Origin: Herpetosiphonaceae bacterium
Lineage (GTDB): Bacteria; Chloroflexota; Chloroflexia; Chloroflexales; Kallotenuaceae
DNA: 64,000 nucleotides
Direction: 5' to 3'
Assembly (NCBI GenBank): GCA_036374795.1
Contig: DASUTC010000342.1
Coordinates: forward strand, 1 to 64,000
In this document: positions 1-18,774 of the stretch, piece after piece
Layout of the letters: each line of letters opens with the position of its first letter
How positions within the stretch are numbered: the stretch's first letter is position 1
Made by a program: the position numbers and the translations under genes
Notes under the pieces: generated by a model
What the model saw: the letters and a program-made list of their open reading frames with translations, nothing else
Databases searched by the model: none
What the model was told of the DNA's origin: nothing

Positions 1-160
1 GTGGCATTGCCGAGCGTGGCATCGCCCTTGAGCGTGCTCGCGCCGTTGACCGTCAGATTGGCGAGCGTGGTGCTGCCGTTGAGATTGGCCGCGCCGCTGG
101 TGGTCAGCGTACCGCCGACAGTGGCATTGCCAAGCGTGGCATCGCCTTTGAGCGTGCTGG
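1..160. repeat. 120-nt in-frame direct repeat
   Basis: Bases 1-40 recur at 121-160 with three mismatches, so the period is 120 nt or 40 codons. The array runs off the window edge, so the copy number is unknown. The repeat encodes the LKGDATLGNATVGG-type beta repeats of the minus-strand gene. Confidence 0.8.
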
Positions 161-1019
161 GTCCAACCACGCTCAGCGTATCGGCGGTGGCCGACCTGGG
201 CGCGACATCCGGGTTGCTGATCGTAATATCCAGCGTGGCGGAGAGCGTCGTGGAACCGGACTCGAACTCCTGGCCGCTCGACATCGTCGCCAGCAGCGTA
301 AAGGTCGTCGTATTGGTCAGCCCGCTCCCAAGCACAAAGGCCGTATCCTTGCCGCTGTAGATCGGGGCGCTCTGACCGGCGGCATACAGGCTGAAGCTGG
401 AGCCGTTGCTCTCCCAGATCAGGCGGATCGCCTCGCCGTTGGCAAAAACGCTGCGCGGCGCGGTGTTCTTGGCGGAAGAAGCCGATGTCGAAACGAAGTT
501 GTTGAGGTAGAGCTGCGGCGTGTCTTTATGCAGCGTATAGGCGTTGCGGCGCTGCTGGAACTGGCTCGGATCGCTGGTGGTGCCCGAATTCTCCACCACG
601 ATGTACTGGAAGTCGCCGGGCGCTGCCGAGTTGACGGGCTGGACCAGCATGCTGAAGACCAGATCGTAGTTGATCAGGTAGTACTCGCTTGAGACACAGT
701 CGATGTAGAAAATGGCATAGCTGGCCTCGGCATCCAGGCCCAGCTCGGCCCCCGACTTGATCTCCATGCTGCTGATCACCCAGCGCGTGGTATTGGGCGT
801 GACGCTGGGCGTGTTCTCGCTCAGGTCGGTGTTCGTCGGGCCGATCGGCACGGCGATGGTGATTTTGTTGCAGTAGATGCTGGTACCGCCGCTCGATACC
901 CAGACGTTGATCCGCGCATTACTGCCGACGTTGGCCGTGCTGGCCTGGATCGGCGCTGGCTGCGTCGAGAACTGATACGTCAGCAGGCACGGGGGAGGCG
1001 TGTTAGCAGCGTATGACAC
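1..1019 (-). CDS. large protein with tail-fibre-like beta repeats, C-terminus beyond window
   Basis: I do not recognise the family by name. The GTG start at 1019 is chosen because AGGAGG lies five bases upstream. The N-terminus reads MSYAANTPPPCLL. About 280 residues of non-repetitive, beta-rich sequence follow, then a repeat region that continues off the left edge; 339 codons are visible and no stop is reached. The repeats are about 40 residues long, rich in Gly, Ala, Thr, Asn and Leu (for example STLKGDATLGNATVGGTL), and look like the stacked beta strands of trimeric tail-fibre or adhesin shafts. It is the last visible gene of the five-gene minus-strand operon that starts at 13979. A fibre or surface-binding role is inferred from composition only. 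Confidence 0.75.
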   Translation of the reverse strand, partial: MSYAANTPPPCLLTYQFSTQPAPIQASTANVGSNARINVWVSSGGTSIYCNKITIAVPIGPTNTDLSENTPSVTPNTTRWVISSMEIKSGAELGLDAEASYAIFYIDCVSSEYYLINYDLVFSMLVQPVNSAAPGDFQYIVVENSGTTSDPSQFQQRRNAYTLHKDTPQLYLNNFVSTSASSAKNTAPRSVFANGEAIRLIWESNGSSFSLYAAGQSAPIYSGKDTAFVLGSGLTNTTTFTLLATMSSGQEFESGSTTLSATLDITISNPDVAPRSATADTLSVVGPSTLKGDATLGNATVGGTLTTSGAANLNGSTTLANLTVNGASTLKGDATLGNA

Positions 1020-1035
1020 TCGATCCTCCTTGTGG

Positions 1036-1142
1036 CGAACAAGGAAACAAGAGAACAAGAGAACAAGCCATTAAGCCTTTGTTCCTTTGTTCTTTTGTTC
1101 TCTTGTTCTGTTCTTCGTTCTTCGTTCTTTGTTTATCTGTTC
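1036..1142 (-). repeat. low-complexity GAACAA-type repeat with inverted halves
   Basis: The junction between the 1214-residue gene and the repeat protein holds iterated GAACAAG units (1037-1067) followed by the same motif in opposite orientation, TTTGTTC and TCTTGTTC units (1078-1110), separated by about ten bases. The transcript could fold into a long imperfect hairpin. The same family occurs at 4803-4886, 7365-7503, 41401-41486, 43105-43198, 54366-54480 and 56630-56663. Confidence 0.7.
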
Positions 1143-1145
1143 TCC

Positions 1146-4100
1146 CTATGAGCTCTTCTGCTGTAGATTGGTCACGAGCTGTAAGAAGCCTTCCCGCAGC
1201 GTATTGGGAAGATCCTTCAGCCGGGCGTTCGGCGTCGTTCGGATCAGGTCGTACCCGGTATTCTGCTCCCACCAAGACCACACGCCGTTCTGCTCGGCGG
1301 GGAAGGGATAGCTGATCGCCTGGTCGTGGGGCGGAACCGGCTGATCGCCGGTCATCGGCGACGGCTGCATGTTGGTCAGCAGCGGGCCGATGCGGAAGGT
1401 GACTTGCATGTTCGAGAGCGGCCCGTCGACGAACTGCGCGGGAATGTCCAGCAGCTTGGCGGGCAGAATACCTGTGACCGCGTGGACGCTGGCGCGCGGA
1501 TCGACGAGCATCGTCACGTAGATCGTGCTTGCGGTGTTGAACTGAAGCTGAAGATAGTTGCCTCCTCCGACCTGCCCGACAGGGCCGATCACTTTGACAT
1601 AACTCTGCTGCGCGGTAGTCTCAGGCAGATAGACGCTGTTGAAGGTGCCGTAGCTGCTGCCGGTGAAGTAGCCGATCAGCCCATCCTGGCGCGTCGGCTG
1701 ATCGCCGAGACGGATCGCGAAGTTATAGCCGATGAACTCCGGCTGCGGCGCGGGATACGTCACCTCCCAGGGCGTGAGATTGCCGATCGGATCGCCGTCC
1801 AGCAGGAACTGGAGCCGGGCGCGGACCAGCGCCAGCGGACGCCCGATCAGCACCGAAAGGTTCTGGTCGTCGCGATTGCCGAGCGGATCGATCGTCCACA
1901 GCGTCTCGTCGATCACCTGGAGGAAGGTCTGAAACGCCGCCGGATCTTTGATGCCGGGATCGCCGATCATCTGGGCCAGGTGCGGCGCGCGCTGCGCCAC
2001 ATCGGCGAGCGTGATCGTGCTGTGAGCGGGAGGCTGCCAGGCGGCGCTCTTGCCGCCCTGATCGTTTTCGAGCAGGCGGAACTCGCCCAGGCTGGTGCCG
2101 TCGGGCGCGTAGAGCAGGATGCTGTTGTCGAGGTGATTGGGCAGCACCCAGCCGCCGATCGGATTAGCGCCCGCGCTGAGGCCGATGATCTTGCTGTCGT
2201 CGCCGCCGTCGATCAGTTGAAAGTCCAGCCGACCGTGCTGAAGCACACGCGGCGGAAGCTGCGCGAAGCGGAAGGCGTTTTGCTGGATCACTGGCTTATC
2301 GAGCTTGAGGCTCTGGTCGAGGATCGGCGCGTAGTTCAGCGGATCGGTCGTGCCCGTGCCGCCGACGACCTGCAACACCTGCCCGAACGAATCATAGACG
2401 ATCAGCTCTTGAATGAAGAGCTGCCCCTGGCGCACGCCCAGGAAATCATAGACCGGGCCGTTGGGAATGTAGGGCACCATATGCGTCTGATCGCCCACCT
2501 GCCCCGCGATCGACGAGTCGGGCGCGGTCTGGGCGCGGGTATCGCGCAGCGCCAGCAGATCGCCGAAGCCGGTGAGCGCCTGCGACATGAAGCGCCAGTG
2601 GTCGAGCGCCTCGATCTGATCGTACAGCGCTTGCAGCTCAGCGCCGGTCTTGGGCGGGTTGGGATTGCTCCTGACGAATGTATCCAGAAAGCGTTGGAGC
2701 TGCGCGCCAAAGTTGAACTGCGCCTCAGGGCTGAGCAGCGACCGCCCTCCGACCACGCGCTGCTGCGGCGTTGCGCCTGCGGGAAACGGCCCGCTGAAGT
2801 GATAGTCCTTGCCGTCGAAGCTCCAGTTGGGCTGGCTGTTGGTCTGGTACGGAATATCGATGTAGCCGACCTGCCACTCCATGAACATCGCGGTCCACGG
2901 CTGCTGCTTCCAGGTCGAGAGCGTCAGCGCGGGCAGCGATCCCTGGTACGTCGCCGGATCGTGGGCCTGCATCACGGCGGCAACCTGATCGGCGGACACG
3001 CCGCTCGCGCTCGCGATGCAGGCGGCGCTGGTCGGGTCGAGCAAGAAGAACTCTTGCAGCAGCGCGCCGACTTCGGCGGGCAGCGCCGAGGTGTTGGGCA
3101 GCGTGGGCAGCGCCGCGCCGACCGCAGCGGCGTTCACAGTCTTGCCGCCAGCCATGAAGCCCGTCACCAGATGCGTCGCCAGGCGGCAATCGAGCGCCAC
3201 GCTTGGATCGGGCAGCGGCGCGGGCTCCACGCCGGAGAGCACAAAGGCCGGATCGGCGGTGCGCCAGTAGCGCGGCGCGGCGATGGCCTTGAGCTGCTTA
3301 TCGGCGGAGAGATTTTTCTGCTGGGCAAAGGCAGCAATGCCCTGATCGAGCGCCATCTCCGGCGTGTTGCCGGAAGCGTAGACCGGCTGCGGCACCTTGG
3401 CGAGCAAGCCCTGGATTGTCTGCAACCTCGTGCTGAGCGCGGCGGGAAGATCCTGCTGCACGGCCTGCTTATATTTGTCGGAGTCGAAGCCGTCGGGCGG
3501 CACGATAATCGACTCGGCCTCGCCTTTTTGCCATTTCCACCACGTCGCGTACAGATTCCATTGCAGACTGTTCAGCCCCTTGAGCGCGTCGTCGAGCATT
3601 GCCTGGTTGTTGTTCAGCTCCAGCAGCCAGGCGGCCTCGTCGTCTGTGAGATCGACCGCTGCCGAGCCGTCCGACTGTTTGGGCACGATCGTCCAGCGGT
3701 AGCCGCCCGCCTTGGAGCCGAACCACGCCTGGTGGATCTGGAGCCGCAGCAGCTCATCGCCGTTGACCTGCTCCATCACTGGCAGCAGGCCGTACTGGAA
3801 CGCCTGCAACAGATCGACAAAGGCCGCGTCGGTGCTGCCGCTGTCCGCCAGCTGCTTGGCGACCAGCGCGGTAAACGCATCGATCGTGTTGTTGCCGATC
3901 GCGACATGCACGTTGTTCTGCATCGAGTCGAGCGGCGTCGGCGGCGCGGCTCCGCTGCGCGACCACGGGATGCCGAAGCTCATGCCCTCGTACAGGCTGC
4001 TGGTGGCCTGTGTCTCGGAGCCGCCCACGACGTTCCAGCCCAGGCTTTGGAGCAGATCGCCGTACGGGTCTTGCGACTGGGTGTTTTGCGGCCAGGCGGC

Positions 4101-4790
4101 CAGAATATCGTCCTGCGCCTTGGAGTACCACCCGACAACCAGATAGCTCACGACATCGCTGTCGATGCCGCTCAGGTCGTCGTAGAAGGAAAAAATATTC
4201 TGGCAGTGCGGCTGGTACATGCTGAAGGCGACATTGCCGGGCGCGACCGCCGTCAGGAACGTCGCGCTCGCGGCGCGCTCGGACCAGCCCGCCAGCGGAA
4301 AGCTTCTGCCGAGCGCGGCAACCTGCGGCGCCGTTGCGTTCGGCTGCAAGGTCGTCTGGTTGCGGTTGGGATCGGCGCTCTGGAGCCACATCTGGATGAT
4401 CTGCGCGTCGACCAGATAGAGCGAGGGCGAGTCGGGATTGGGACAGTCGCTCTCGACCACCCAGCCGGTCGCCGCGCGCTGGCCCGCTCCGTTCAGCCGC
4501 ACGATCAGCCAGCGATTGGGCACGGGCGGGTAGCCGATCGCGATGCTCTGGCTGCTGGCAGGGTCTTGCGTCCCGTGCCGCAGCGCGTCGGGCAGCGTCC
4601 AGTGCAGGTACACGCCCGGCGCGGGCGGCTTAAAGGTGCCCTGTCCCTGGGTCGGCTCCGGCTCAGGGCTGGTGAAATTGCTGAGGGCTTTGTAGTTGAA
4701 GACCCATTGCCGGAAGCCCTGCTTGCCCTGAAACGCGCTATTGACGACCAGCGCATCCAGCGCCACAGGCACGATCAGAGGAGTGGTCAC
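1146..4790 (-). CDS. unrecognised 1214-residue protein of the giant-protein operon
   Basis: I do not recognise a named domain. A GTG start at 4790 (MTTPLIVPVALDALVVN) is preferred because AAGGAG lies seven bases upstream; a longer reading would translate intergenic repeat DNA. There is no signal peptide and no clear membrane segment. Notable stretches are GVYLHWTLPDALRHG and VPNRWLIVRLNG near residues 80-130, and YLVVGWYSKAQDD near 220. From memory, large proteins with the GVYLHW..PDALRHG pattern occur as hypothetical proteins in actinobacteria, but I cannot verify this. It lies between the 789-residue gene and the repeat protein, all on one strand, which suggests joint expression and perhaps one complex. 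Confidence 0.85.
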   Translation of the reverse strand: MTTPLIVPVALDALVVNSAFQGKQGFRQWVFNYKALSNFTSPEPEPTQGQGTFKPPAPGVYLHWTLPDALRHGTQDPASSQSIAIGYPPVPNRWLIVRLNGAGQRAATGWVVESDCPNPDSPSLYLVDAQIIQMWLQSADPNRNQTTLQPNATAPQVAALGRSFPLAGWSERAASATFLTAVAPGNVAFSMYQPHCQNIFSFYDDLSGIDSDVVSYLVVGWYSKAQDDILAAWPQNTQSQDPYGDLLQSLGWNVVGGSETQATSSLYEGMSFGIPWSRSGAAPPTPLDSMQNNVHVAIGNNTIDAFTALVAKQLADSGSTDAAFVDLLQAFQYGLLPVMEQVNGDELLRLQIHQAWFGSKAGGYRWTIVPKQSDGSAAVDLTDDEAAWLLELNNNQAMLDDALKGLNSLQWNLYATWWKWQKGEAESIIVPPDGFDSDKYKQAVQQDLPAALSTRLQTIQGLLAKVPQPVYASGNTPEMALDQGIAAFAQQKNLSADKQLKAIAAPRYWRTADPAFVLSGVEPAPLPDPSVALDCRLATHLVTGFMAGGKTVNAAAVGAALPTLPNTSALPAEVGALLQEFFLLDPTSAACIASASGVSADQVAAVMQAHDPATYQGSLPALTLSTWKQQPWTAMFMEWQVGYIDIPYQTNSQPNWSFDGKDYHFSGPFPAGATPQQRVVGGRSLLSPEAQFNFGAQLQRFLDTFVRSNPNPPKTGAELQALYDQIEALDHWRFMSQALTGFGDLLALRDTRAQTAPDSSIAGQVGDQTHMVPYIPNGPVYDFLGVRQGQLFIQELIVYDSFGQVLQVVGGTGTTDPLNYAPILDQSLKLDKPVIQQNAFRFAQLPPRVLQHGRLDFQLIDGGDDSKIIGLSAGANPIGGWVLPNHLDNSILLYAPDGTSLGEFRLLENDQGGKSAAWQPPAHSTITLADVAQRAPHLAQMIGDPGIKDPAAFQTFLQVIDETLWTIDPLGNRDDQNLSVLIGRPLALVRARLQFLLDGDPIGNLTPWEVTYPAPQPEFIGYNFAIRLGDQPTRQDGLIGYFTGSSYGTFNSVYLPETTAQQSYVKVIGPVGQVGGGNYLQLQFNTASTIYVTMLVDPRASVHAVTGILPAKLLDIPAQFVDGPLSNMQVTFRIGPLLTNMQPSPMTGDQPVPPHDQAISYPFPAEQNGVWSWWEQNTGYDLIRTTPNARLKDLPNTLREGFLQLVTNLQQKSS

Positions 4791-4802
4791 GTTGTTGCTC
4801 CT

Positions 4803-4886
4803 TATTGGCAGAACAGACAAGCAAAGAACAAAGCACAAAGCATTCCGATCGGATTTGTTCTTTGTTTCGTGGTTCTTTGTTCTCGC
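4803..4886 (-). repeat. GAACAAA-type repeat hairpin
   Basis: CAAAGAACAAAGCACAAAG units face TTTGTTCTTTGTTTC and TTCTTTGTTC units around a central perfect palindrome TCCGATCGGA (4845-4854). The tract fills the junction between the 789- and 1214-residue genes and can fold as a hairpin in the minus-strand transcript. Confidence 0.65.
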
Positions 4887-7256
4887 TTAGCTCGTCTGGC
4901 TATCAAACATCAGCTCTTCCAGCCCTTTGACCATCTGGATCGCGAAGTCTGCGGGGCCGAAGCTGCTAAGCTGCTGTCCTGCGGCTTTGAGCTGCGCCTG
5001 CAACTGCTGGATCAGCCCGTCCGCCGAGGCCGGAGCCAGATTCAGCACGCGGCTGTTGGGCCGCATACAGAGCGCCTGCTGGCCTGAGAGATCGCGGATC
5101 TGAAACGTTTTGTTGAGCGCCTGTCCCAGCAGCGGATCGCCCGATTTCTGCGGCGGCATCAGGTTGCGCAGCTCGACCGCGCCCTGCTCGTCGATGCCGA
5201 AGCTGAAGCCCTCCTGCGGCTCGCTGAGCTGGATCTGCATGGGAACGCCCAGGAACAGGCACAGCAGCACGTCGGGCGCGAGATGATCCATGCGCAGGAT
5301 CTTCAGCAGCGCTTTGTCGGCGTTGTAGGGCCGCACCGACAGATTGGGCCAGCCCGATACCAGCGCCGAGCGCAGCAGCAGGCCGCTGATCACTGTCTCG
5401 CCCTCAGGACCGGGCGACGGATCGACTCCGCGCAGGCTGTCGCGCAGCACCTTGGCCGCCTCGAAGGCCGCCTCCTCGATCAGCCCGCTGGTCATCTGGT
5501 AGAAGAAGGTCTGGCGGCTGGACTCCAGCCCCAGGCTTTGCGCGCCGTCGAGCAGCGCGCCGGTCCAGTTGTCGTCGACGTAGAAGAAGCGCAGCGACTC
5601 GATCGGCAGCATGTTCGGATCGGGCACCAGATAGTCGAAGGGCAGCGGATAGAGCAGCAGCAGCCGCGCCAGCCATTGGGCGATCGGATCGAGATCGTCC
5701 TTGACCATCTGCACGATCACCTGCTGATTGCCGGGATCGGCCAGGAAGTTCTCGACGGCGGTCTTGGGATCGGTATCGTCGGCGGCTGGCGGAGCCGGAG
5801 GCGTGCCCGGCGTGACGGGCTTTGTCCCGATGTCTTGAACCAACTGCGTATCCAGCGCGTTGAGAAACTGCGTCTGAAGCAGATTGTCCTGGGCAAGCTG
5901 GCTGATGTCGTCGGGCGTGTCGAAGTGATCGCGATCCAGCCGATCTTGAAGCTGATCGGTCAGCCGATGTGCCCGGCGGCGGAAATCGAGCAGCGCCTGC
6001 CCGAAGGACTTATCCGACAGCGCGAGGCCACGCCCGATGTTCCAGGCCGCCGCCAGCGAACAGTCGAAGATGCCGTTGGTATTGTCGTAGATCAGCGCGG
6101 CGTCGGCGGTCAGGAACGGCCCCGGCTTCTGGAGCGGCGTCGGCAGCAGCGGCGCGAGCGGCCCGCGATACCAGGCGAACGTATCTTCTCCGGTGCGCGT
6201 GTGATACGGCAGCGCGACGTAGCCATCGCCGATGCGCCTGACGACCTCGGCATTGGCCGCGACGCTCGTGTCGAGGCTGGGCGGCGGCAGGCGCAGCCAC
6301 AGATTCGCCGGGTGATGCTGCTTGCTCTGCGCGTCGTACTCCTGAGCCAGCAGATTGAGCATCAAGCCCTGAAAGTTCTCGCGCGGATCGGGCAGGCATT
6401 GAAAGGTCCAGCTTGCCAGCGACAGCAGCGCGATCGTATCGTAGACCGTGCTGCCGTCGTTTTTGCCCGATTTTGTAAAGACCGGATTGTCGACCAGGTA
6501 TTGGGTCAGGCCCTCCATCGACACGAGATGGACCACGTTGCGCACGGCCACCGGATTAGTCTCCGACGTATCGATCGCCGGGAAGCGGCTGCACACCACC
6601 ACCGAGAAGATCCCATGCTCGTTGACGCCGTCCATCGACTTATCGCCGGTGTTGATCTGACGCACATGCGCCAGAAACGGCATCTCGGCCAGTCGCGGCG
6701 TGACGCTCTGGAAGACCGAGGTTTTCAGCTTGATGTACGTGCAGACCTGATCGTCGGGAATGTCGTCCTCTTTGGTGATCGACGGGACCAGCAGTTGGCT
6801 GCCGAGGCCCAGGAAATCGCCGACCGTCGTAGTGATCGTGTGCGTGGGCGAGCCGGGCCGTCCATTGGTCGCGCTCGCGTCGTCGATCAGCTCGTCTTCC
6901 TGAAAGACCAGCAGCGCCAGCCACGGATCGGCGCGGTCGGGCATCTTGCGCTCCCAGGGCAGCAGCGGCTCGGTCAGCACGACATGCGGCAGCACATCGG
7001 CGAACTGTCCGAGGCTGCCATCGGGCGGGTACATGTTGAGCACCTCGCTCGGATCGACCGTGAACTGCGGCGCGCTGACCACAAAGCGCTGGGTCGCGCT
7101 AGCCTGAAACTGCTGCGGCGAATGGGGATCGCCCGTCTGGATGCCCTGAAGCGTGTGCGTGACGGTGATCAGATAATCTCCGCTGTACATCGGAGGAATG
7201 TAGTTATCGTACAGTTGAATGTCGCCGACCGGTATATCAGGAGGCTGGTTGGTCAT
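4887..7256 (-). CDS. unrecognised 789-residue protein of the giant-protein operon
   Basis: No named domain is recognised. The ATG at 7256 (MTNQPPDIPVGDIQLYDNYIP) is chosen because AGGAGT lies five bases upstream; the reading frame extends nine codons further into repeat DNA. The N-terminal 150 residues look beta-rich (SGDYLITVTHTLQG, QRFVVSAPQFTV). There is a Pro/Ala-rich linker near residue 490 (PGTPPAPPAADD) and a helical C-terminal part ending in QLQAQLKAAGQQLSSFGP. There is no signal peptide. It sits between the DUF6603-like gene and the 1214-residue gene; the 254-bp upstream gap is filled with three repeat families. Function unknown; partnership with its neighbours is inferred from the operon. 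Confidence 0.85.
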   Translation of the reverse strand: MTNQPPDIPVGDIQLYDNYIPPMYSGDYLITVTHTLQGIQTGDPHSPQQFQASATQRFVVSAPQFTVDPSEVLNMYPPDGSLGQFADVLPHVVLTEPLLPWERKMPDRADPWLALLVFQEDELIDDASATNGRPGSPTHTITTTVGDFLGLGSQLLVPSITKEDDIPDDQVCTYIKLKTSVFQSVTPRLAEMPFLAHVRQINTGDKSMDGVNEHGIFSVVVCSRFPAIDTSETNPVAVRNVVHLVSMEGLTQYLVDNPVFTKSGKNDGSTVYDTIALLSLASWTFQCLPDPRENFQGLMLNLLAQEYDAQSKQHHPANLWLRLPPPSLDTSVAANAEVVRRIGDGYVALPYHTRTGEDTFAWYRGPLAPLLPTPLQKPGPFLTADAALIYDNTNGIFDCSLAAAWNIGRGLALSDKSFGQALLDFRRRAHRLTDQLQDRLDRDHFDTPDDISQLAQDNLLQTQFLNALDTQLVQDIGTKPVTPGTPPAPPAADDTDPKTAVENFLADPGNQQVIVQMVKDDLDPIAQWLARLLLLYPLPFDYLVPDPNMLPIESLRFFYVDDNWTGALLDGAQSLGLESSRQTFFYQMTSGLIEEAAFEAAKVLRDSLRGVDPSPGPEGETVISGLLLRSALVSGWPNLSVRPYNADKALLKILRMDHLAPDVLLCLFLGVPMQIQLSEPQEGFSFGIDEQGAVELRNLMPPQKSGDPLLGQALNKTFQIRDLSGQQALCMRPNSRVLNLAPASADGLIQQLQAQLKAAGQQLSSFGPADFAIQMVKGLEELMFDSQTS

Positions 7257-7323
7257 CGTGTACTCCTGCGTTCCAAGTTTCAAGTTTCAAGTTCAGGCCC
7301 TCACCCCCGGCGCTGCCGCGCCA

Positions 7324-7353
7324 CCCCCTCTCCCATTGTGATAGGAGAGGGGG
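7324..7353. repeat. REP-like hairpin, copy 1
   Basis: A perfect 10-bp inverted repeat, CCCCCTCTCC and GGAGAGGGGG, encloses the loop CATTGTGATA. The flanking text AGGCCCTCACCCCC and AGCAG is shared with the copy at 43071-43100. Confidence 0.8.
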
Positions 7354-7399
7354 AGCAGAGAATTCCTAGTGCTTCGTTCTTCCCTCGGTTCTTGGTGCG

Positions 7400-7440
7400 C
7401 CGGGTGCCAGACCCAAAGGGTACCCCGGCATGGCACCCGG
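7400..7440. repeat. 10-bp inverted repeat
   Basis: CCGGGTGCCA (7400-7409) and TGGCACCCGG (7431-7440) are perfect inverted repeats; between them GACCC-AAA-GGGT forms a second small stem. It could be an attenuator or the end of a small repeat element. Confidence 0.65.
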
Positions 7441-7510
7441 TTCTTGGTTCCTTCGTTTTGTTCTTTGTTCTTTGTTCTTTGTTTGTCTCTGGCCCCTTTG
7501 TTCCATCGGA

Positions 7511-10500
7511 TCACCCCGACGAAACCTGCAAGGGCGAGTCGCTGAAGAGCTGCTGGGCCTGCTGCGCCATCTGGCTCAAGTCGCCGCTGGGACCGCTGTA
7601 GAGCTTCGCGGTGGTGAGCGCGTTGAAAATGCTGGTGCGATTCTGCTGCGCCGTGCCGCTCATGATCTGCTCGATCGCGCCGACGGTTGTGTCGTTGAAC
7701 GTCGGCAGATAGTCCGGTGAGAGCGGCATGGTCGTGTTCAGCGGAGCCTGCCCATCGATCGCCGACACCGGCTCGTAGGCGAGCTCGCTCAGCGTCACCA
7801 GCCCGGTCGTCGGCCCAAGCTGCGGCGGCGGAAGCTGGATCACACTGCCGACCGGCGCGCTGGCGATCGTGTTGGCGGTGGCCTGCGGTGGGAGCTGCGT
7901 AAAGTTGCCCTTGGCGTCTTTCAGCGGCGCGCCCCACAGCGACTCCGGCATATTGCGCTTGGCGATGGTCGGGCTCCAAGTCGAGACATCGACATAGCTG
8001 CCGTCGTCGCGGTTCTGGATCGTGATCGCGTGCGTCGAGGGCGCGCTCTGCGTGTTCATCGGGCGGATGTTGAGCGTAAAGCCGGTATCGACGTTCTGAC
8101 TCGCTGCCGCATTCGTCCCGGCGCTGCCGTACGTCACCTGGCTGGCCGGGATCGCCGACTCGGTGGCGAAGCTGAAGCTCGTGGCGCGCACCACCCAGAC
8201 CTTCGCGCCCGGCTGCGTTGTGTCGTCGATCGACTTTTGCAGGCCATTGCCCGCCGTGATCTTGCACACATCGTTCTGTGGGGGCAGCAGGTTTTGAAAC
8301 TCGGGCCAGGGCAGCGGCGTGTTGGCCTGCCCGGCGTTGTCCGAGCCGAAGGCCACGGTGAACGAGACGACCCACAGATGGACACGCACGGTGCCGCCGG
8401 TCGGCGGTCCCCACAGCTTGACGGAAGCGCCGAGCGAGAGCGAGAGCGTCTTGCTGACGAAGCCCAGATCGAGCTTGTAGGAGACGCCGATGCTGACCTC
8501 GATCGAGGCCATGAAGAAGAAGGGACGCCACGAGATCAGCAGATCGGCCTGCGCGGTGAACCAGGCGCGCAGGTTGCCGGAATGAAACAGCACTTGCAGG
8601 CCGCCGCCCGCCATCACGCAGGAGGTGGTCAGCGCGAAGTAGGCCTCGCCTTTGATCGTCACCAGATCGCTGACCGCCCAGTTGAAGCCCAGGCGCGGCT
8701 CCTGCGGGAAGTACGACGGCGGCGAGAAGGCGGGATGGTAGCCGCCGAGCGTGATCACGAACTGCCCGGCGTTGGGATTGGGACCGAACCAGATAAAGAA
8801 GGCAAAGCCGCCGGTCAGATGACAGGCCGGGGCGATCACATACGAGTTGGGGCTGAGCACCGCCGTCAGGCCAAAGATGCCCTCCTGCGGCTTGAGCGTG
8901 GCCTCAAGCTGTAGCTCGACATAGGCATAGGTTAGCGCGTCGGACGCGCCCTGCGGCAGGCGCATCGTGGCGAGGCCGAGCAGCGTCAGCGCGAACTCGG
9001 TGCCGAACTGGGCGATCAGCAGCGCCTTGGAGTTGACCAGCTTGAAGGAGGTGAACTCGATGCCGAGCGCGAGCCAGTACTCGCCGTGCTGCGGGGCGAT
9101 CCAGGCTTTGGGCGTGCCGCCCTGCTTGATCGGCTGGCGGCCTTCCAGAATGTCCAGCACATGCGAGGGATCTTGCTCCGCGATCGGCTGGCCGGGCGCG
9201 GGCGGCTGAGCCAGCACCAGCAGTGGAAAGCCAAAGACCTCATCCTGAGCCGGGATCTGGAGCGCGCGATTGTAGCCGAAGCCCGCCATGATCCCGGTGA
9301 TGAAAAAGGCGGGCGGTCCGCCGAAGGCTCCCTCGACCTGCGCAAAGACGAAGAGCGATGGCTCGCCGGAGCTGGCAAGCTGGGCATACGAGCCGATGGC
9401 GGAGAAGCTGAACTGGGAGGCTTTGATCACGGCCAGGCCATCGTACTGGTAGGCGGTGTCGGGGGCGAGCTGCTTGGCGGGAACGGCGAAGAACGCGCCC
9501 ATGATCTCCAGCGGCGGCTGGTTGTAGGCCAGGCCGAGGCCGCTGAGATGGAACGCGGGCGAAAAGTGGGTCAGCGGCGAGCCGAGCGCGAGTCCGTCCA
9601 TCGAGAAGGTCAGCGGCCCCAGCACGATCGCCGAGTCGAGCACGATAAAGAGCGTGCCGTCGTCCTGGTAGAGAATGCCGATGCGCTTGAAGGAGAAGAT
9701 GCCGAAGGTCTTCTGGACGTTGAACCACTTGGTGTTGTCGGCGGGCGGCGCGGCAGCCGCAGCGCCCGTGGTCGCCAGGGCGGTCGTGCTCGTGCTAGCG
9801 CTGGTCGCCAGGACGTTCGTGCCGCCGCCGCCACTGACGGGCTGCGTCGAGCCGCCGATCGTCAGGTCGAGCGCGACGCTATCCTTGCCGAGCAGCAGCG
9901 AGCCTTGCAGCGTAATCGTCGAGGTCAGATCGCGGTCGGGCAGCGTGGGATAGCCGCCGCCGGGGATCGCGTTAATCGCCGTGTTGACCTGCTCGACGCC
10001 GGCCTTGAGCAGCGTATCCGAGAGCAGCCAGAAGCCGATGTCGTTGATGCCGAGCTGATCGGCGTCGGGCAGCTCGCCGCCGACCAGCGGAATGTCGGCC
10101 AGGGTGACATGCAGCGGCACATCCACGCCGAAGACATACACCGTCTTCTGCTGGACCGTGGTCATGACGAAGACGGCCTGGCCGTAGTTGACCGAGGTCG
10201 CCGCCAGCGTGAGCTGTTTGCTGGTCAGGTTGTAGCTGATCGAGGCGCGCTTGAGGCCAAGATCGAGCCCCGGCGGAATATCCGGCGGCTTGGCTCCGAT
10301 CAGATCGCAGAGCGACGCGATGCCAAACGTCTCCGTGCCGGTCGCCTGCCAGGAGAGCGTGAGCTGCTGGCTGCTCTTGAAATCGTACTCGACGGTGAAG
10401 AGATTTTGCCCGATCTCGATCGTTCCGGTAACGCTCCCCGACCACGCGCCCTGCTGGTCGCGCGCGATGGTGCATGCGCCGGTGATCTTCTTCAGAATTG

Positions 10501-12157
10501 GATCGTCCTCGTTGAAGTAGCCGATCGCCGCCTGAAACGAGAACGAGCTGTACTTCGTCTCGTACTGTTGTAGCTCCAGCTTGCTGAGGATGATCTTGGG
10601 CAGATCGCCGGGCAGTTGCACGCCGAAGATCTTCAGCAGATCGGCCACCAGGTCGGAGAGATTGATGTTCTGCTGCTGGTAGGTGCCGCCCGAAAAGGTC
10701 CAGACGGCGTCGGTTTCGCTGACCGCCAGATACAACTGGGCGTCGGCGATGGCGAATAAACAGCCAAAGGCCAGCGAGACGCTGCCGCCGGAGTACTCGA
10801 CCGAAAAGCTAAGCTGCTCGATGACAAAGTTCGGGATCACCGTCAGCGTGCCGATCGCCTGGCAGGATAGCCCGTACGATTTTTGGTCGATATTGGCGAA
10901 CAGGTCCAGCTCGTAGATCTGGAGATCGCTATTGCCCGGCAGTGTGACACCCCTGGCAAAGGTCTGGATGAAGTCGTTGATGTCGATCACGCTGCCGTAG
11001 GCAAGCTGCGCGCCGACGACCTTGTCGGGATACTGGATGTAGGCGTCGATCGCGGCGGTGACGACCTGAAGCTGCGCGGTGACGGTCGCCGAGATCTGCT
11101 TGGGATCGGGGTTGAGCGGCGATGGGATCTGGAAGACGGCGGTTAGGCCATTGAGCGCCAGGATGTTATCGACGATCGTCCAATTGGTGCCCAGGTGAAT
11201 GCCGATTTGCAGGTCGGTGATCTGCCTGCTCTGCGTATCCAGCACAAAGCTGAGGCTGTCCAGCGAGAGGGTGCCGATCGGCGTGTCGGCGCTGATCTGG
11301 CTGGCCGGGCTGCCGCTCTTGGTCAGGCCGGAGATCTGATCCAGGCTGGAGATCGAGGGCGCTGGCTTGGTCAGATCGAGGCGCACCGGCAAGATCGTCT
11401 GGTTGCTGTCGGTCATCGAGATCACAATCGGCAGCGTCAGCGCGGGCGTTATCAGCTCCGTGGTTATATCGATGCTGGTCAGCAGCCGGGCAGCGCCGCC
11501 CTGCGTTTGATCCTGAAACAGCTTGCTCCGCACGTTGAAGAACAGATCCAGCTCAAAGCCGCTGATCGACGGCGACTTGATGGCGCTGCTCTGCACGTTG
11601 AACTCAGGATAGAAGCTGCCGCTGACCTCAGTGATGGGCACGTCCCCGCTGATCGTCAGATTCTGGCCCAGGATCGCGGCGAGCATCTGGAGCAGCCCGG
11701 CATTCGTCAGGATGCTCGACTGGAAGCGGGTGGTGCTGGCGGCGAAGGTTGAGTCCAGCGTGTAGACGGGCTTCGACAGGCCGAGGCTGTTGATCGGATT
11801 GCTCGTCAGACCGGCGACGACCGGAAAGCTATCGCCGAAGCCATAGGGATCAGGGATGTTCGCCTGCACGGTGCACTGGATCACGCTGCTGCTGTCGGCG
11901 TAAAACGTGATCGTCGCCGGGATCGTCGTCTGCTTCCCGTAGAGCGCGAAGCCCTGGGTTGCGAGCGCGGCGCTGGGGTAGACTACATTGCTCGTACCGA
12001 TCTGCGGATCGCCCAGTGTGGCGACCAGCTTGCCGCCGAAGAAGCTGCCGAGCAGCGTATTGATGCCCGGAGAGCCGAGCGTGTTGGTGGTATCCAGCGT
12101 CAAGTGACCGCCCGGAGCATACGGATCGATCTTGTTCTTAATATCGCTTCCGTTCAT
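7511..12157 (-). CDS. DUF6603-like giant protein, 1548 residues
   Basis: I assign it tentatively to the DUF6603 family of very large uncharacterised bacterial proteins, from memory of stretches such as GFGYNRALQIPAQDEV and LGLAYNQPPLEIMGAFFAVP (about residues 880-990). The N-terminal half is beta-rich with alternating hydrophobic strands (LTLDTTNTLGSPGINTLLG). A low-complexity Ala/Thr/Ser linker near residues 770-810 separates it from the DUF6603-like region, and the C-terminal 250 residues look like a separate domain. There is no signal peptide. The ATG at 12157 follows GAGG; a TTG one codon upstream is also possible. The nuclease-like gene ends seven bases upstream, so the two are probably translated together. 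Biological role unknown. Confidence 0.85.
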   Translation of the reverse strand: MNGSDIKNKIDPYAPGGHLTLDTTNTLGSPGINTLLGSFFGGKLVATLGDPQIGTSNVVYPSAALATQGFALYGKQTTIPATITFYADSSSVIQCTVQANIPDPYGFGDSFPVVAGLTSNPINSLGLSKPVYTLDSTFAASTTRFQSSILTNAGLLQMLAAILGQNLTISGDVPITEVSGSFYPEFNVQSSAIKSPSISGFELDLFFNVRSKLFQDQTQGGAARLLTSIDITTELITPALTLPIVISMTDSNQTILPVRLDLTKPAPSISSLDQISGLTKSGSPASQISADTPIGTLSLDSLSFVLDTQSRQITDLQIGIHLGTNWTIVDNILALNGLTAVFQIPSPLNPDPKQISATVTAQLQVVTAAIDAYIQYPDKVVGAQLAYGSVIDINDFIQTFARGVTLPGNSDLQIYELDLFANIDQKSYGLSCQAIGTLTVIPNFVIEQLSFSVEYSGGSVSLAFGCLFAIADAQLYLAVSETDAVWTFSGGTYQQQNINLSDLVADLLKIFGVQLPGDLPKIILSKLELQQYETKYSSFSFQAAIGYFNEDDPILKKITGACTIARDQQGAWSGSVTGTIEIGQNLFTVEYDFKSSQQLTLSWQATGTETFGIASLCDLIGAKPPDIPPGLDLGLKRASISYNLTSKQLTLAATSVNYGQAVFVMTTVQQKTVYVFGVDVPLHVTLADIPLVGGELPDADQLGINDIGFWLLSDTLLKAGVEQVNTAINAIPGGGYPTLPDRDLTSTITLQGSLLLGKDSVALDLTIGGSTQPVSGGGGTNVLATSASTSTTALATTGAAAAAPPADNTKWFNVQKTFGIFSFKRIGILYQDDGTLFIVLDSAIVLGPLTFSMDGLALGSPLTHFSPAFHLSGLGLAYNQPPLEIMGAFFAVPAKQLAPDTAYQYDGLAVIKASQFSFSAIGSYAQLASSGEPSLFVFAQVEGAFGGPPAFFITGIMAGFGYNRALQIPAQDEVFGFPLLVLAQPPAPGQPIAEQDPSHVLDILEGRQPIKQGGTPKAWIAPQHGEYWLALGIEFTSFKLVNSKALLIAQFGTEFALTLLGLATMRLPQGASDALTYAYVELQLEATLKPQEGIFGLTAVLSPNSYVIAPACHLTGGFAFFIWFGPNPNAGQFVITLGGYHPAFSPPSYFPQEPRLGFNWAVSDLVTIKGEAYFALTTSCVMAGGGLQVLFHSGNLRAWFTAQADLLISWRPFFFMASIEVSIGVSYKLDLGFVSKTLSLSLGASVKLWGPPTGGTVRVHLWVVSFTVAFGSDNAGQANTPLPWPEFQNLLPPQNDVCKITAGNGLQKSIDDTTQPGAKVWVVRATSFSFATESAIPASQVTYGSAGTNAAASQNVDTGFTLNIRPMNTQSAPSTHAITIQNRDDGSYVDVSTWSPTIAKRNMPESLWGAPLKDAKGNFTQLPPQATANTIASAPVGSVIQLPPPQLGPTTGLVTLSELAYEPVSAIDGQAPLNTTMPLSPDYLPTFNDTTVGAIEQIMSGTAQQNRTSIFNALTTAKLYSGPSGDLSQMAQQAQQLFSDSPLQVSSG

Positions 12158-12164
12158 CAAGGCC

Positions 12165-13979
12165 TCACAGGTTCATCGTAAAGAGCACGGGCAGATGGTC
12201 GCTGACGCACAGGTGAACAAACTCTGCCGCTCTCCGCGCCGGTGGGACGGCTCCCGCTCCCGCAAAAAGCCCGCCGCCCAGATCGAAGACAAAGTTGTTA
12301 ATGCTCTGAATATTGGGCGTAGCCGGGCCGGGGCCGGGCGCAAGACCCCAGGCAATATTCCAGTGCTGGTTGAAGATCGGGATATTGGCGAAGGGCATGA
12401 TGCTGGCGGCAGGCATATTGAACGCGGCGGCAGCGCCCGTCACGGCTGTGAGCAGATCGTAGATCCCGGCGGGCACGGGTGCCGGTGCCAGGCCGCCCCC
12501 GAAGCCCCGGTAGAAGACGTTGTCGATCGCCAGCAGCCGATAGGCGTTGGTCGCCGCGTTGATCACGGGGCCGCCCCCGACCGGCGGATTGTTGACCTGG
12601 GCGGTCGATTTATTCAGCACGTTGTCGGCGCGGGTCGGAGCCGGAATAGCCGGAGTCGGCGCGGGCGCGGCGTTGTAGACTCGCGCCACACAGTTCGCGC
12701 CGCCCAGCCCGAAGCCTTGCAAAAAAGCGTTGTAGGCATAGGCCACCGAGTCGGTCGCAACGTTGAAGTCGCCGCCAAGCACGGCAAAGGTGTTGTTGAT
12801 CCAGCCTGCGGCACCCGGATCGTACGCCTGGTACAGCTCGCGCGAGTAGGCTGCCCGCTGCATGCCCGACGACGAGGCCGGAGCCGCCGACGGCGCGTGG
12901 TACATGATCACCGGCACGAGGCGCTGCGCTGCCGCTACGGGCGGGTTGCGGTTCACGTCGATCGTGATATACGACGGTCGTCTGCACCCGCGCATCGCGG
13001 CGGGCATTCCCGCTCCGCGCGTAAAGTACAGATATTGCCAGGGGTGGGCGGCAGCAGGATTGAAGTTGGCGGTCGCGCCGCTGACGTCGCCGTTAAGAGT
13101 AGCCGGATTGACGCCACCGCCGCGTGTGTCGCGGCCCATGAGCACCAGGCTTAAGCCGTACTCAGGAACGACGACCGATCCGGGCGCTGGCAGCGTCAGC
13201 GGCTCCGTCAGCGTGTAGTTGCCGGGGATTACCACCGGGTTGATGTTCATGAACGGGGCCGTGAGCTGGACCCCGGCAGCGCCGATGAGCGTGCCCACGG
13301 GCAAGACCGTGCCGCCGTTGACGTTGGCTGCCGCTCCGAGCACCGCGCCTGCGGCCAGCACCACCGGACCCATCGGGCCGCCGTTGTTGATGCCTGCTCC
13401 GCCGGGCGCGGTAGTGCCGACTGGCAACGTAAAGGCCGGATTTGGGGGCACGACAATGCCGCCTGCCGGTACGCCTATGCCGAAGAGCGGCACGGCGGGC
13501 GGCGCGCCAAAAACAACGCTGCCGCGCCCACGCACTGTCTGCGACTGGCTGTTGGCAAAGGGGCCGCCTCCGGCTGGTGTGGTGATCGGCGGGGAGGCCT
13601 GGACCTTGAACTTGGCAAGGTTCTGATTCCAGAAGATCGCGTAGCCTTCGTAGTGCGCGGAGTCCCAATCCAGGTGAGCCGCCAGGTTGAAGGGAGCGAC
13701 GGCAACCGCCCCGTCGGTGCCGACCGCGCCCTTGATCCAGTCGTAGTACCAGTTGTTGCGCGGCGCGGGCAGCGCGCACAGCTCCCGCTGGAGCCGTTGC
13801 AGGTCGTTGTTCAGGATCGCGGCCTGCCGCAGCTCCTGGATGCAGATAATATCGGCCTGGACCAGATCGGCGACGGCGGCGATGAAGCCGCAGAGCGGAT
13901 CATAGCTGTTTTTGTAGCCGCTCCCGGGCATGATGCCAAAATTTTGGATGTTCCAGTAGAGGACATTGATCGTCGGCAT
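12165..13979 (-). CDS. endonuclease/exonuclease/phosphatase-fold protein with large Gly/Ala insertion
   Basis: The motifs of the metal-dependent EEP superfamily (DNase I, sphingomyelinase, inositol phosphatase folds) are present in order: YWNIQNFG (Asn10), DIICIQELR (Glu49), MYHAP (His361), GGDFNV (Asp404, Asn406) and SDHLP (Asp594, His595). At 604 residues it is about twice the usual size because residues about 130-320 are an insertion rich in Gly, Ala, Pro and Val that separates the two halves of the fold. There is no signal peptide. GGAGGG lies upstream of the ATG. It is the first gene of the giant-protein operon. Substrate (nucleic acid, phospholipid or sugar phosphate) cannot be told; catalytic competence is inferred from the intact motifs. 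Confidence 0.85.
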   Translation of the reverse strand: MPTINVLYWNIQNFGIMPGSGYKNSYDPLCGFIAAVADLVQADIICIQELRQAAILNNDLQRLQRELCALPAPRNNWYYDWIKGAVGTDGAVAVAPFNLAAHLDWDSAHYEGYAIFWNQNLAKFKVQASPPITTPAGGGPFANSQSQTVRGRGSVVFGAPPAVPLFGIGVPAGGIVVPPNPAFTLPVGTTAPGGAGINNGGPMGPVVLAAGAVLGAAANVNGGTVLPVGTLIGAAGVQLTAPFMNINPVVIPGNYTLTEPLTLPAPGSVVVPEYGLSLVLMGRDTRGGGVNPATLNGDVSGATANFNPAAAHPWQYLYFTRGAGMPAAMRGCRRPSYITIDVNRNPPVAAAQRLVPVIMYHAPSAAPASSSGMQRAAYSRELYQAYDPGAAGWINNTFAVLGGDFNVATDSVAYAYNAFLQGFGLGGANCVARVYNAAPAPTPAIPAPTRADNVLNKSTAQVNNPPVGGGPVINAATNAYRLLAIDNVFYRGFGGGLAPAPVPAGIYDLLTAVTGAAAAFNMPAASIMPFANIPIFNQHWNIAWGLAPGPGPATPNIQSINNFVFDLGGGLFAGAGAVPPARRAAEFVHLCVSDHLPVLFTMNL

Positions 13980-14720
13980 ACAAAAGCCCTCCAGCTTTGT
14001 ACTACGTTGGCCTTCGTGTAGCGCTGATGTAGTTCAGGAGGTGTGCGTCGCCACCGGATCGTGGCAGAAACCCCGCATGTGGGGCTTGATCTTGACATAA
14101 TAAGAGTCTAAGCCGATCTCTGTCATCGGAAGCGACCGCGCGATGCAAGATAGGATGTAGGGGCCTCTATGCTGGCTGCGACCATGTCGCCGTGCGCCGC
14201 CTGCCGATGCTGCCATGGTGCGGGGTCAGCGTTGCATCGGATCTGGCCGGGTCGTTATCGTCTGACGGGTTACAGAGCAGTGCGGATCGAATCAGGCGAT
14301 CCTGAGCGAGCTGCGCGCATCGCTATCAACAGGGGGGCAGGCATAGCTGTGCTACAGGCTATCACAAATGTGCTCGAAATACAATAGCCGAGATTGGAGT
14401 AATTTCGGCTCGTTCATTCGGTCAGTATCCCGGCTCGATCCGCTCACGATCCACCGAATAGATGTGCGAATCGCGGGCCGCGTCTGGCTTGACCCGGCCT
14501 CGTATCTCATGTACAATGTCAAAGACTTGTAAAATACTACACCCATTCGTCGCTGTCTATTGCCGCCGCGTAGTGGCACACAGCCATCCGGCCTTGCGCA
14601 TCTCGATCCCGCGCTCCCAGACGACACGTTCCACCGCCAGGCTGTAGCCAAAGCTCTGGCACGTGCCTTTGGGACGGGAGCATCCATCATCCGCATGCAA
14701 CGATCCGCGATCCAAAAGCT
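13980..14720. other. divergent intergenic region between the giant-protein operon and the lanthipeptide locus
   Basis: It must hold promoters for both directions. The clearest plus-strand candidate is at 14489-14517. TTGACA at 14092-14097 has no convincing -10 partner. GTAAAATACTAC near 14529-14540 resembles half of the palindrome at 31872-31887. A minus-strand reading frame over 14352-14789 has no family features and overlaps the fusion-protein gene; I do not call it. Confidence 0.6.
14489..14517 (+). promoter_or_regulatory. candidate sigma-70-type promoter of the lanthipeptide operon
   Basis: TTGACC and TACAAT are separated by exactly 17 bases. The site lies about 200 bases upstream of the first gene of the exporter and precursor operon. 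The long leader leaves room for regulation. Confidence 0.45.
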
Positions 14721-15296
14721 ATGAGCCAGCCTCCACGCCCGATCTTTCGCGCCGACGCCGTGCGTCGCTACGCGGAGCGCAGCGATCAAGCGGTATTACC
14801 CCGGCTGATCGCTCCACGCACCTTTCTCTGGCTCTGGCTGCTGGCTGCATGCCTCGTCGGCAGCGCCGGAGCGGCATGGCTCGTCCAGGTGCCGATCTAT
14901 GCCTCCGGTCGGGCGGTCGTGCTCGAAGCGGCCAGCAGCGGCCATGCTGTGACGGCGGTGGTGCTTCTGCCGCCCGACACACTGCCCCGGTTGCGCCCCG
15001 GACAGTCGGTGGTCGTCACCTCTGCCGATCGGGCCAGCCAGCCGATCACCGGCGCGCTCATCTCCATCGAGCCGACGATCACGAGTCCCGCCGAGATCCA
15101 GCGGCGCTATGCGTGGCACGAGGGCGTGGCCCACTCTGCCGATCGACCGTCGGCGGTGGCGCTGGCACGGCTTGATCTGCCATCGGATCTGCCCGCTGCG
15201 GCCTACATCGGCAGCCGCTATCGGATCGATACCGCTGTCGGATCGCGGCGAGTGCTGTCCTTTCTGCCGGTCTTCGGCCCGCTGCTGGGGGCCTAG
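14721..15296 (+). CDS. short HlyD-like membrane fusion protein of the lanthipeptide exporter
   Basis: The 191-residue product has a cytoplasmic N-terminus (FRADAVRRYAERSDQAVLPRL), one membrane segment at about 37-58 (TFLWLWLLAACLVGSAGAAWL) and a short periplasmic beta domain (VPIYASGRAVVL, LRPGQSVVVTSADRASQP). This matches the N-terminus and end of HlyD-type adaptors that accompany NHLP and lanthipeptide exporters. It lacks the long coiled coil of typical adaptors (usually 350-450 residues), so it is either a minimal form or internally deleted. It ends three bases before the exporter gene, which supports a shared role. No good ribosome binding site is seen at the ATG. Confidence 0.7.
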   Translation: MSQPPRPIFRADAVRRYAERSDQAVLPRLIAPRTFLWLWLLAACLVGSAGAAWLVQVPIYASGRAVVLEAASSGHAVTAVVLLPPDTLPRLRPGQSVVVTSADRASQPITGALISIEPTITSPAEIQRRYAWHEGVAHSADRPSAVALARLDLPSDLPAAAYIGSRYRIDTAVGSRRVLSFLPVFGPLLGA

Positions 15297-15299
15297 CGC

Positions 15300-17549: not shown

Positions 17550-17620
17550 CCTTTTGGGTCTTCCGGCCTGTCCGCAGCAGGCCGTGACCATACATCGTAC
17601 ACAGCAATAAGGAGGTATGC

Positions 17621-17806
17621 ATGTCCAACGTAGACATCATTCGCGCCTGGAAAGACGAGGAGTATCGCGCGAGCCTGAGCGAGACGGAGCGCGCGGCGCT
17701 GCCGGAGCATCCCGCCGGGCTGGTCGAGCTGACCGATGAAGAGCTGGATCTGGCGGCGGGCGGCGCGTGGACCGGCACCTGGTACACCTGCCCGGTCGAG
17801 TCCTAG
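17621..17806 (+). CDS. lanA1: class II lanthipeptide precursor 1 (mersacidin/lichenicidin-type leader)
   Basis: The 61-residue peptide starts MSNVDIIRAWKDEEYRASLS and continues with the LPEHPAG and VELTDEEL elements of mersacidin/lichenicidin-family leaders, ending in AAGG at residue 48. The predicted core is 13 residues, AWTGTWYTCPVES, with three Thr, one Ser and only one Cys, so at most one thioether ring could form. The ribosome binding site AAGGAGG is the strongest of the four precursors. Its leader differs from the others at residues 3-5, so it is the most diverged copy. Confidence 0.9.
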   Translation: MSNVDIIRAWKDEEYRASLSETERAALPEHPAGLVELTDEELDLAAGGAWTGTWYTCPVES

Positions 17807-17917
17807 CTCCACCAGCGGGAATCAATCGAGTAGCCCCGTTCGTCCGTGATTCGGCCTTGCTGCGGAAGGTCGAAGCCGGCAATCAACGACGCTTGTCAAG
17901 CCCTATGGAGCAACCCC

Positions 17918-18112
17918 ATGTCGATCGAAAACATCATCCGCGCCTGGAAAGACGAGGAGTATCGCGCGAGCCTGAGCGAGACGGAGCGCGTGGCATTGCC
18001 GGAGCATCCCGCCGGGCTGGTCGAGCTCGCCGATGAGGATCTGGGTGTCGTCGCCGGTGGTAATCCCAACGATCTGGTCGTCTGCACCGTCATTTCGACC
18101 GATTGCTGCTAG
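17918..18112 (+). CDS. lanA2: class II lanthipeptide precursor 2
   Basis: The 64-residue peptide has a leader ending in VVAGG at residue 48 and a 16-residue core, NPNDLVVCTVISTDCC. The core has Cys at 8, 15 and 16 and Thr/Ser at 9, 12 and 13. The leader carries ETERVALPEH and LADEDLGVVAGG, slightly different from copies 3 and 4. The ATG at 17918 is chosen because the block GGAGCAACCCC precedes it, as for copies 3 and 4. The core is unlike the other three, so the single LanM must act on several unrelated sequences. Confidence 0.9.
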   Translation: MSIENIIRAWKDEEYRASLSETERVALPEHPAGLVELADEDLGVVAGGNPNDLVVCTVISTDCC

Positions 18113-18173
18113 GGCTTTTCCGTCGGATCGATCATCGTTGAAGTCATTGCATAGCACAACAAGGAGCAACCCC

Positions 18174-18389
18174 ATGTCGATCGAAAACATCATCCGCGCC
18201 TGGAAAGACGAGGAGTATCGCGCGAGCCTGAGCGAGACGGAGCGCGCGGCGCTGCCGGAGCATCCCGCCGGGCTGGTCGAGCTGACCGATGAAGAGCTGG
18301 ATCTGGCGGCGGGCGGCTGCGATACCCGCGACTGGCGGGCATGCTCGTCGTTCTGCCGAGTTGAAACCTGCACGGACGGCGCCTGCTAG
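18174..18389 (+). CDS. lanA3: class II lanthipeptide precursor 3
   Basis: The 71-residue peptide has a 48-residue leader ending in LDLAAGG and a 23-residue core that begins CDTRDWRACSS and ends TCTDGAC. Core Cys residues are at 1, 9, 13, 18 and 23; Thr/Ser at 3, 10, 11, 17 and 19, so five rings are possible in principle. It lacks the CTxTxEC lipid II-binding pattern of mersacidin. It is preceded by AAGGAGCAACCCC. Leader DNA is almost identical to copy 4, pointing to recent duplication. Confidence 0.92.
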   Translation: MSIENIIRAWKDEEYRASLSETERAALPEHPAGLVELTDEELDLAAGGCDTRDWRACSSFCRVETCTDGAC

Positions 18390-18455
18390 CGTAAGCCGGG
18401 CTGTGCCACGTGTTTCTTCTGAATCACGCGCTGTACCGCGCGAGGGAGCAACCCC

Positions 18456-18674
18456 ATGTCGATCGAAAACATCATCCGCGCCTGGAAAGACGAAGAGTAT
18501 CGCGCGAGCCTGAGCGAGACGGAGCGCGCGGCGCTGCCGGAGCATCCCGCCGGGCTGGTCGAGCTGACCGACGAAGAGCTGGGCCTGGCAGCGGGCGGCT
18601 GCGATACCGAAGATTGGCGCGCGTGCTCATCATACTGCCGCAGGGAAACCTGTACGGACTATGTTTGCGCGTAA
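18456..18674 (+). CDS. lanA4: class II lanthipeptide precursor 4
   Basis: The 72-residue peptide is a close paralogue of copy 3. The 24-residue core begins CDTEDWRACSSYC and ends CTDYVCA; all five Cys (1, 9, 13, 18, 23) and all five Thr/Ser positions are conserved with copy 3, while the changes are at non-ring positions (R4E, F12Y, V15R, G21Y, A22V and an added C-terminal Ala). The pattern suggests selection on ring topology. A two-peptide pair is possible, but the cores are too alike for typical alpha/beta partners. Confidence 0.92.
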   Translation: MSIENIIRAWKDEEYRASLSETERAALPEHPAGLVELTDEELGLAAGGCDTEDWRACSSYCRRETCTDYVCA

Positions 18675-18682
18675 GGTCAGTT

Positions 18683-18709
18683 GATCGCCGCGACTGGCGC
18701 GCATGGTAG
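18683..18709 (+). pseudogene. remnant of a fifth lanthipeptide core
   Basis: Nine bases after precursor 4 the DNA reads GAT CGC CGC GAC TGG CGC GCA TGG TAG, or DRRDWRAW-stop, aligning with DTRDWRACS of precursor 3. The stretch CGCGACTGGCG is identical to precursor 3 and the next GCATG matches after one mismatch; further on CTGCC aligns too. The core Cys codon TGC is now TGG and the next Ser codon is TAG. No leader is left. Confidence 0.55.
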
Positions 18710-18774
18710 AGCACTGCCATGCGCGTCGATTATCACTTCACCTATCACTTCACCGGCATCGTCGAGGAGTCAAC

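Follow-up and report, generated by a model that had tools for sequence, protein, structure and literature searches.

Comparison with described delivery systems

Extracellular contractile injection systems (eCIS) are multi-gene units that combine a targeting fibre with variable, effector-like enzymes, show no obvious signal peptides, and are scattered patchily among environmental bacteria and archaea. The same features recur in a five-gene cassette at the start of a 64,000-nucleotide stretch of DNA from a Herpetosiphonaceae bacterium (NCBI GenBank assembly GCA_036374795.1, contig DASUTC010000342.1, positions 1 to 64,000; hereafter the window). Unlike an eCIS, this cassette lacks genes for sheath, tube, baseplate, eCIS_core and ATPase. 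Its five genes are transcribed in the order EEP-fold enzyme, DUF6603 protein, 789-residue protein, 1214-residue protein and fibre, and they form a conserved unit in which an exchangeable enzyme is coupled upstream of DUF6603 (the enzyme slot) and the fibre joins a conserved base to a variable or swapped tip. The cassette is best read as an undescribed, non-contractile, effector-carrying particle.

Other delivery systems share part of this plan. Tc toxin complexes also consist of a few giant proteins, with large beta-rich members and a variable enzymatic component, yet the cassette encodes its enzyme as a separate gene rather than as a C-terminal region and has a separate fibre gene; none of the five window proteins matches a Tc or RHS family in Pfam. 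Polymorphic toxin systems, including the effectors of the type VI and type III secretion systems (T6SS, T3SS) and Rhs proteins, likewise place a fast-changing enzyme beside a conserved carrier, and one slot protein resembles the T6SS effector family BTH_I2691. In the cassette, however, the enzyme is encoded separately and upstream, with no recognised immunity gene or known secretion machine. Phage tail fibres resemble the cassette fibres in their conserved base and swapped tip, and in Chloroflexota cassettes the fibres have matches to tail collar fibre families of phages (best E 9.8e-83); they differ in that the cassette fibre sits without other tail genes and the window fibre has no PHROG match.

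Conservation and distribution of the cassette

Searching genome contigs with the 789-residue protein returned ten relatives with 37-57% identity, nine of which keep the order DUF6603-789-1214-fibre: a Pyrinomonadaceae metagenome-assembled genome (MAG), a Roseivirga MAG, Chitinophaga silvatica and six Paenibacillus. The tenth comes from an Emcibacter MAG whose contig stops inside the 789 gene. The 1214-residue protein is 37-53% identical to nine homologues in the same gene order. Among relatives within the window's own taxonomic order, the arrangement is instead 1214-fibre-enzyme-DUF6603-627/789-like.

Across 400 genomes of the phylum, eight carry the 1214 family, and all eight also carry the 789 family and DUF6603 (hypergeometric p ~1e-14, not corrected for relatedness). 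The sole extra 789-family match in this set is a decayed locus (L066, G038:C42, 4802-6979); the remnant there has a 789-family piece fused to a part resembling the slot protein of genome G381, itself without family assignment. One genome (G021) carries two cassettes, and whole or partial cassettes are also carried by plasmids of Paenibacillus, Streptomyces and Embleya. A second subtype combines DUF6603 with two other unnamed families, of 1400-1900 and 560-750 residues, and is found in several bacteria and in the archaeon Halalkalicoccus (L062, L063, L064, L035, L048). Co-occurrence in other genomes had been set beforehand, in the initial annotation, as a test of its interpretation, and the cassette indeed recurs in several phyla and on plasmids.

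DUF6603 is present in only two of the four searched genomes of the window's genus. The window's 789-residue protein is 55-57% identical to its homologue in the Pyrinomonadaceae MAG and 47% to the one in Paenibacillus tuaregi, against 33% for its counterpart in G001, a genome of the window's own genus. The pattern fits horizontal transfer. Contamination of a MAG could also produce it, and base composition (63.6% GC in the cassette vs 65% in its surroundings) gives no sign of recent acquisition.

An exchangeable enzyme upstream of DUF6603

In 21 of 26 loci the DUF6603 gene is directly preceded by a coupled gene on the same strand, mostly with a gap of -4 to +30 bp; in the window, DUF6603 starts 7 bp past the stop of the enzyme gene. 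The window's slot protein matches Pfam PF03372 (Exo_endo_phos) at E 2.2e-7, over the gathering score, and among solved structures its profile comes closest to DNase I and DNase gamma (E 2e-7 to 2e-6), identifying it as a predicted DNase I-like member of the EEP superfamily. In an alignment with the slot proteins of six Paenibacillus, it shares only 15-26% identity where the neighbouring 789 and 1214 proteins share 37-47%, while the catalytic motif residues N10, E49, H361, D404, N406, D594 and H595 are invariant.

These seven EEP loci are matched by seven whose slot holds a metallo-beta-lactamase fold: six Chloroflexota cassettes and Streptomyces clavuligerus, the match of the last falling just under the Pfam cut-off. 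The HxxxDH motif and other metal-binding columns are invariant among these proteins. The slot holds a PhoD protein in genome G010, a PhoD-like relative in Streptomyces longwoodensis and an M23 peptidase in G403, while a trypsin-like protein lies one gene further out than the slot position in Paraburkholderia. The slot protein of Halalkalicoccus is the one resembling BTH_I2691 (E 2.7e-10, below the family's curated cut-off), and that of G330 has a T3SS effector family as a marginal match (E 0.015), which was not counted. The remaining coupled slot proteins have no family assignment. The enzyme component is thus swapped among unrelated families while the carrier stays conserved, as in polymorphic toxin and effector delivery.

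Fibre proteins with conserved bases and variable tips

The initial annotation described the fifth gene as encoding a fibre-like repeat protein. A 51-nt repeat at 6-176 lies within this gene, producing Gly/Asn/Thr-rich repeats in the protein, and an N-terminal part of ~290 residues is common to the fibres of other cassettes (L019-L027), which occupy the same position. Pfam, NCBIfam and PHROGs gave nothing significant for the window fibre itself, and no other part of the genome was found to hold the rest of its truncated gene.

Comparisons between cassettes locate the variation at the tip. The fibres of L019 and L021 are 50% identical N-terminally, and their last 180 residues are unrelated. Three Roseivirga fibre paralogues share 62-71% of their N-terminus vs 36-38% of their tip, and the fibres of L025 and L026 share 99% vs 79%. 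A conserved base carrying a variable or swapped tip is the way receptor-binding fibres diversify. A 5048-codon open frame lies near one cassette, at ~33-48 kb of G012:C257 (L053, L034), and weakly matches the LamG part of the fibre.

The conserved large proteins

The DUF6603 protein matches Pfam PF20248 over residues 815-1334 (E 9.5e-154, model positions 1-501 of 502). For the 789- and 1214-residue proteins, searches of Pfam, NCBIfam, PHROGs and Protein Data Bank (PDB) sequences gave nothing significant, and PDB sequence profiles built for these two families and DUF6603 gave no meaningful match. The open-access library searched contains no paper mentioning DUF6603 or its Pfam/InterPro accession. 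Judged by sequence, the scaffold is without homology to the known scaffold families of tails, Tc toxins or T6SS.

AlphaFold2 models DUF6603 residues 390-1548 mostly as long beta strands (mean pLDDT 52.5, pTM 0.36) and gives the 789-residue protein a mean pLDDT of 59 and a pTM of 0.41; with input alignments of 11 rows, both models are weak and do not settle the scaffold fold. The top Foldseek matches of the DUF6603 model, a beta meander, are LptD, apolipoprotein B and outer-membrane barrels. Foldseek and VIA matches to LptD, apolipoprotein B and porins have TM-scores of ~0.1 and root-mean-square deviations of mostly 10-40 Å, and those to immunoglobulin-like domains reach Z ~6. Given such low-confidence models and TM-scores, these matches were set aside as uninformative; they exclude no known fold.

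Proposed function and alternative explanations

An interchangeable enzyme and an exchanged fibre tip on a conserved scaffold follow the logic of effector delivery, and we give about an even chance to the reading that the products of the five genes form a single modular assembly carrying an enzyme to other cells. Its assembly, release, target and activity we infer as follows. The DUF6603 protein would hold or pass on the enzyme encoded beside it, the 789- and 1214-residue proteins would build the body, and the fibre would bind the target surface. Lacking a signal peptide, the assembly would exit the cell most simply by lysis, and the cargo in the window genome would be a DNase I-like nuclease that attacks DNA of the target. 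The initial annotation had proposed a multi-protein particle or toxin system, and not an ordinary contractile injection system. Co-occurrence and the varying enzyme slot and fibre tip support the first part, the physical particle or toxin itself being putative; the second agrees with the missing contractile genes and with the several cassette genomes that have no sheath gene. The initial annotation also raised membership of the large proteins in a well-characterised pathway, and no described pathway was found.

Several observations weigh against delivery. A recognisable coupled enzyme is absent from five loci; because DUF6603 is shortened to 848-919 residues in three of them, the N-terminal part missing there may serve the enzyme. 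No immunity gene was recognised in a scan covering only the short upstream open reading frame (ORF) at 14352-14789, which has no Pfam match, so an antibacterial enzyme toxic to its own producer has no direct support. No lysis or assembly gene was identified, and the two structural models, at their low mean pLDDT, give no usable fold match. The argument for delivery is a genetic one, and a secreted or surface enzyme complex could vary likewise.

Such a complex, on the surface of the producer or released around it, might scavenge nucleic acid or phosphate or attach filaments, with the fibre as an adhesin and the enzymes serving nutrition. The slot enzymes are all potentially digestive hydrolases (DNase I-like EEP, PhoD-like, metallo-beta-lactamase fold, peptidases), and the patchy distribution suits an accessory trait, but none of the five proteins has an obvious export signal, the fibres are of the phage tail collar type with diversified tips, and one slot protein is related to a T6SS effector family. 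This explanation appears rather unlikely. A lipid-handling role, in which DUF6603 would be a lipid-binding giant of beta sheets or barrels and the EEP and other enzymes would act on phospholipids, could draw on the modelled beta meander with its matches to LptD, apolipoprotein B and outer-membrane barrels. The EEP and metallo-beta-lactamase superfamilies do include phospholipid-cleaving members. TM-scores of about 0.1 on a low-confidence model carry little weight, however, DNase I is the closest solved match of the EEP profile, and peptidases in the slot do not fit, leaving this role quite improbable.

The remaining alternatives connect the cassette to contractile tails or phages. No sheath, tube, baseplate, capsid or packaging gene was recognised among the five cassette genes in Pfam, NCBIfam or PHROGs, nor, by Pfam, any contractile-system gene in the ten neighbouring ORFs scanned, and a plain eCIS was rejected for the cassette itself. 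It could still be a payload or accessory of an eCIS encoded elsewhere, and the window genome does hold a separate eCIS-type locus (L070, G000:C158:1-19000) with eCIS_core, sheath, tube, LysM/CIS_tube, hub, gp25 and baseplate J genes; a second sheath gene of this genome lies on contig C65. Sheath genes are over-represented in genomes with a strong DUF6603 match (8/10 vs 87/400, p 1.2e-4; by genus 6/8, p 0.005), figures that are uncorrected for genome size or relatedness. In a Herpetosiphon-like genus, three genomes with the cassette have a sheath gene and three without it have none, and on a Paenibacillus polymyxa plasmid, baseplate V and DUF4280 genes lie ~9 kb from the cassette. Where positions are known, though, the sheath and cassette loci are hundreds of kb apart, and neither four cassette-bearing Paenibacillus genomes nor G286 and G330 have a sheath match. 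Those four Paenibacillus suggest that the cassette does not generally need a contractile system; dependence as a requirement is disfavoured, an association may exist, and a payload role is improbable. That the cassette is what remains of a phage, or a domesticated piece of one, is very improbable: although Chloroflexota cassettes carry tail collar fibre domains, the cassette is without capsid, terminase, portal, tube or sheath genes, no phage record encodes a DUF6603 relative, and IMG/VR scans returned no relative of DUF6603 or the 789-residue protein. None of the five window proteins has a PHROG match, the cassette's neighbours are lanthipeptide-type and protease genes rather than the head, packaging and tail genes of a prophage, and phage origin was rejected for the cassette itself.

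Gene organization of the window

The window begins with the very first base of its contig (C342, 71,537 bp), in a genome of 7.75 Mb on 373 contigs, so the leftward extension suggested in the initial annotation has no sequence to draw on. The five consecutive minus-strand genes of the initial annotation are all present (Table 1), and its EEP-fold and DUF6603 assignments and its unrecognised 789- and 1214-residue proteins stood up to the searches above. Since homologues in other phyla span the full or near-full length of each ORF, the five are real genes and not chance ORFs; the EEP homologues are distant, at 15-26% identity. In agreement with the initial annotation, N-termini read by eye from the sequence showed no obvious signal peptide on any of the five proteins.

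Table 1. Features of the cassette and its immediate surroundings in the window
Feature	Position	Strand	Remarks
EEP-fold protein, 604 aa (enzyme slot)	12165..13979	-	Pfam PF03372 match; Gly/Ala/Pro-rich insertions
DUF6603 protein, 1548 aa	7511..12157	-	Pfam PF20248; rich in predicted beta strands
789-aa conserved cassette protein	4887..7256	-	Homologues in same gene order; without known family
1214-aa conserved cassette protein	1146..4790 (start approximate)	-	Homologues in same gene order; without known family
N-terminal 339 aa of a fibre-like protein, truncated at the contig end	1..1019 (start approximate)	-	Conserved N-terminal part and Gly/Asn/Thr-rich repeats
Inverted repeat between 1214 and fibre genes	1036..1117	.	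31-nt arms, 84% complementary, 20-nt loop

From the coordinates, the gaps downstream of DUF6603 are 254 bp (DUF6603-789), 96 bp (789-1214) and ~126 bp (1214-fibre). The inverted repeat in the last gap is a member of a dispersed family with 48 matches across the genome, and no Rfam element was found within the window.

Adjoining the cassette on the plus strand, at 14721-22035, is a lanthipeptide-type cluster encoding an HlyD-like protein, a C39-peptidase ABC transporter, a short ORF (18410-18709) and a LanM-type synthetase (DUF4135 and LANC_like); a precursor peptide was not identified in this cluster. Beyond it, on the minus strand at 22159-25689, lies a subtilase with carboxypeptidase-regulatory, BACON and malectin domains.

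Significance

No component of the scaffold could be connected to any known delivery system through its sequence. Tentatively, and with somewhat less than even confidence, it may represent a class of effector-delivery particles that has no kinship with contractile tails, Tc toxins or the known secretion systems, built from a DUF6603 giant, an interchangeable enzyme and tail-fibre-like targeting proteins, and spread across bacteria and, through the second subtype, archaea. The reading offers a first functional hypothesis for DUF6603. If true, it would reveal an undescribed route for enzymes from free-living bacteria to other cells, one whose targeting part and cargo part have already been exchanged in nature.
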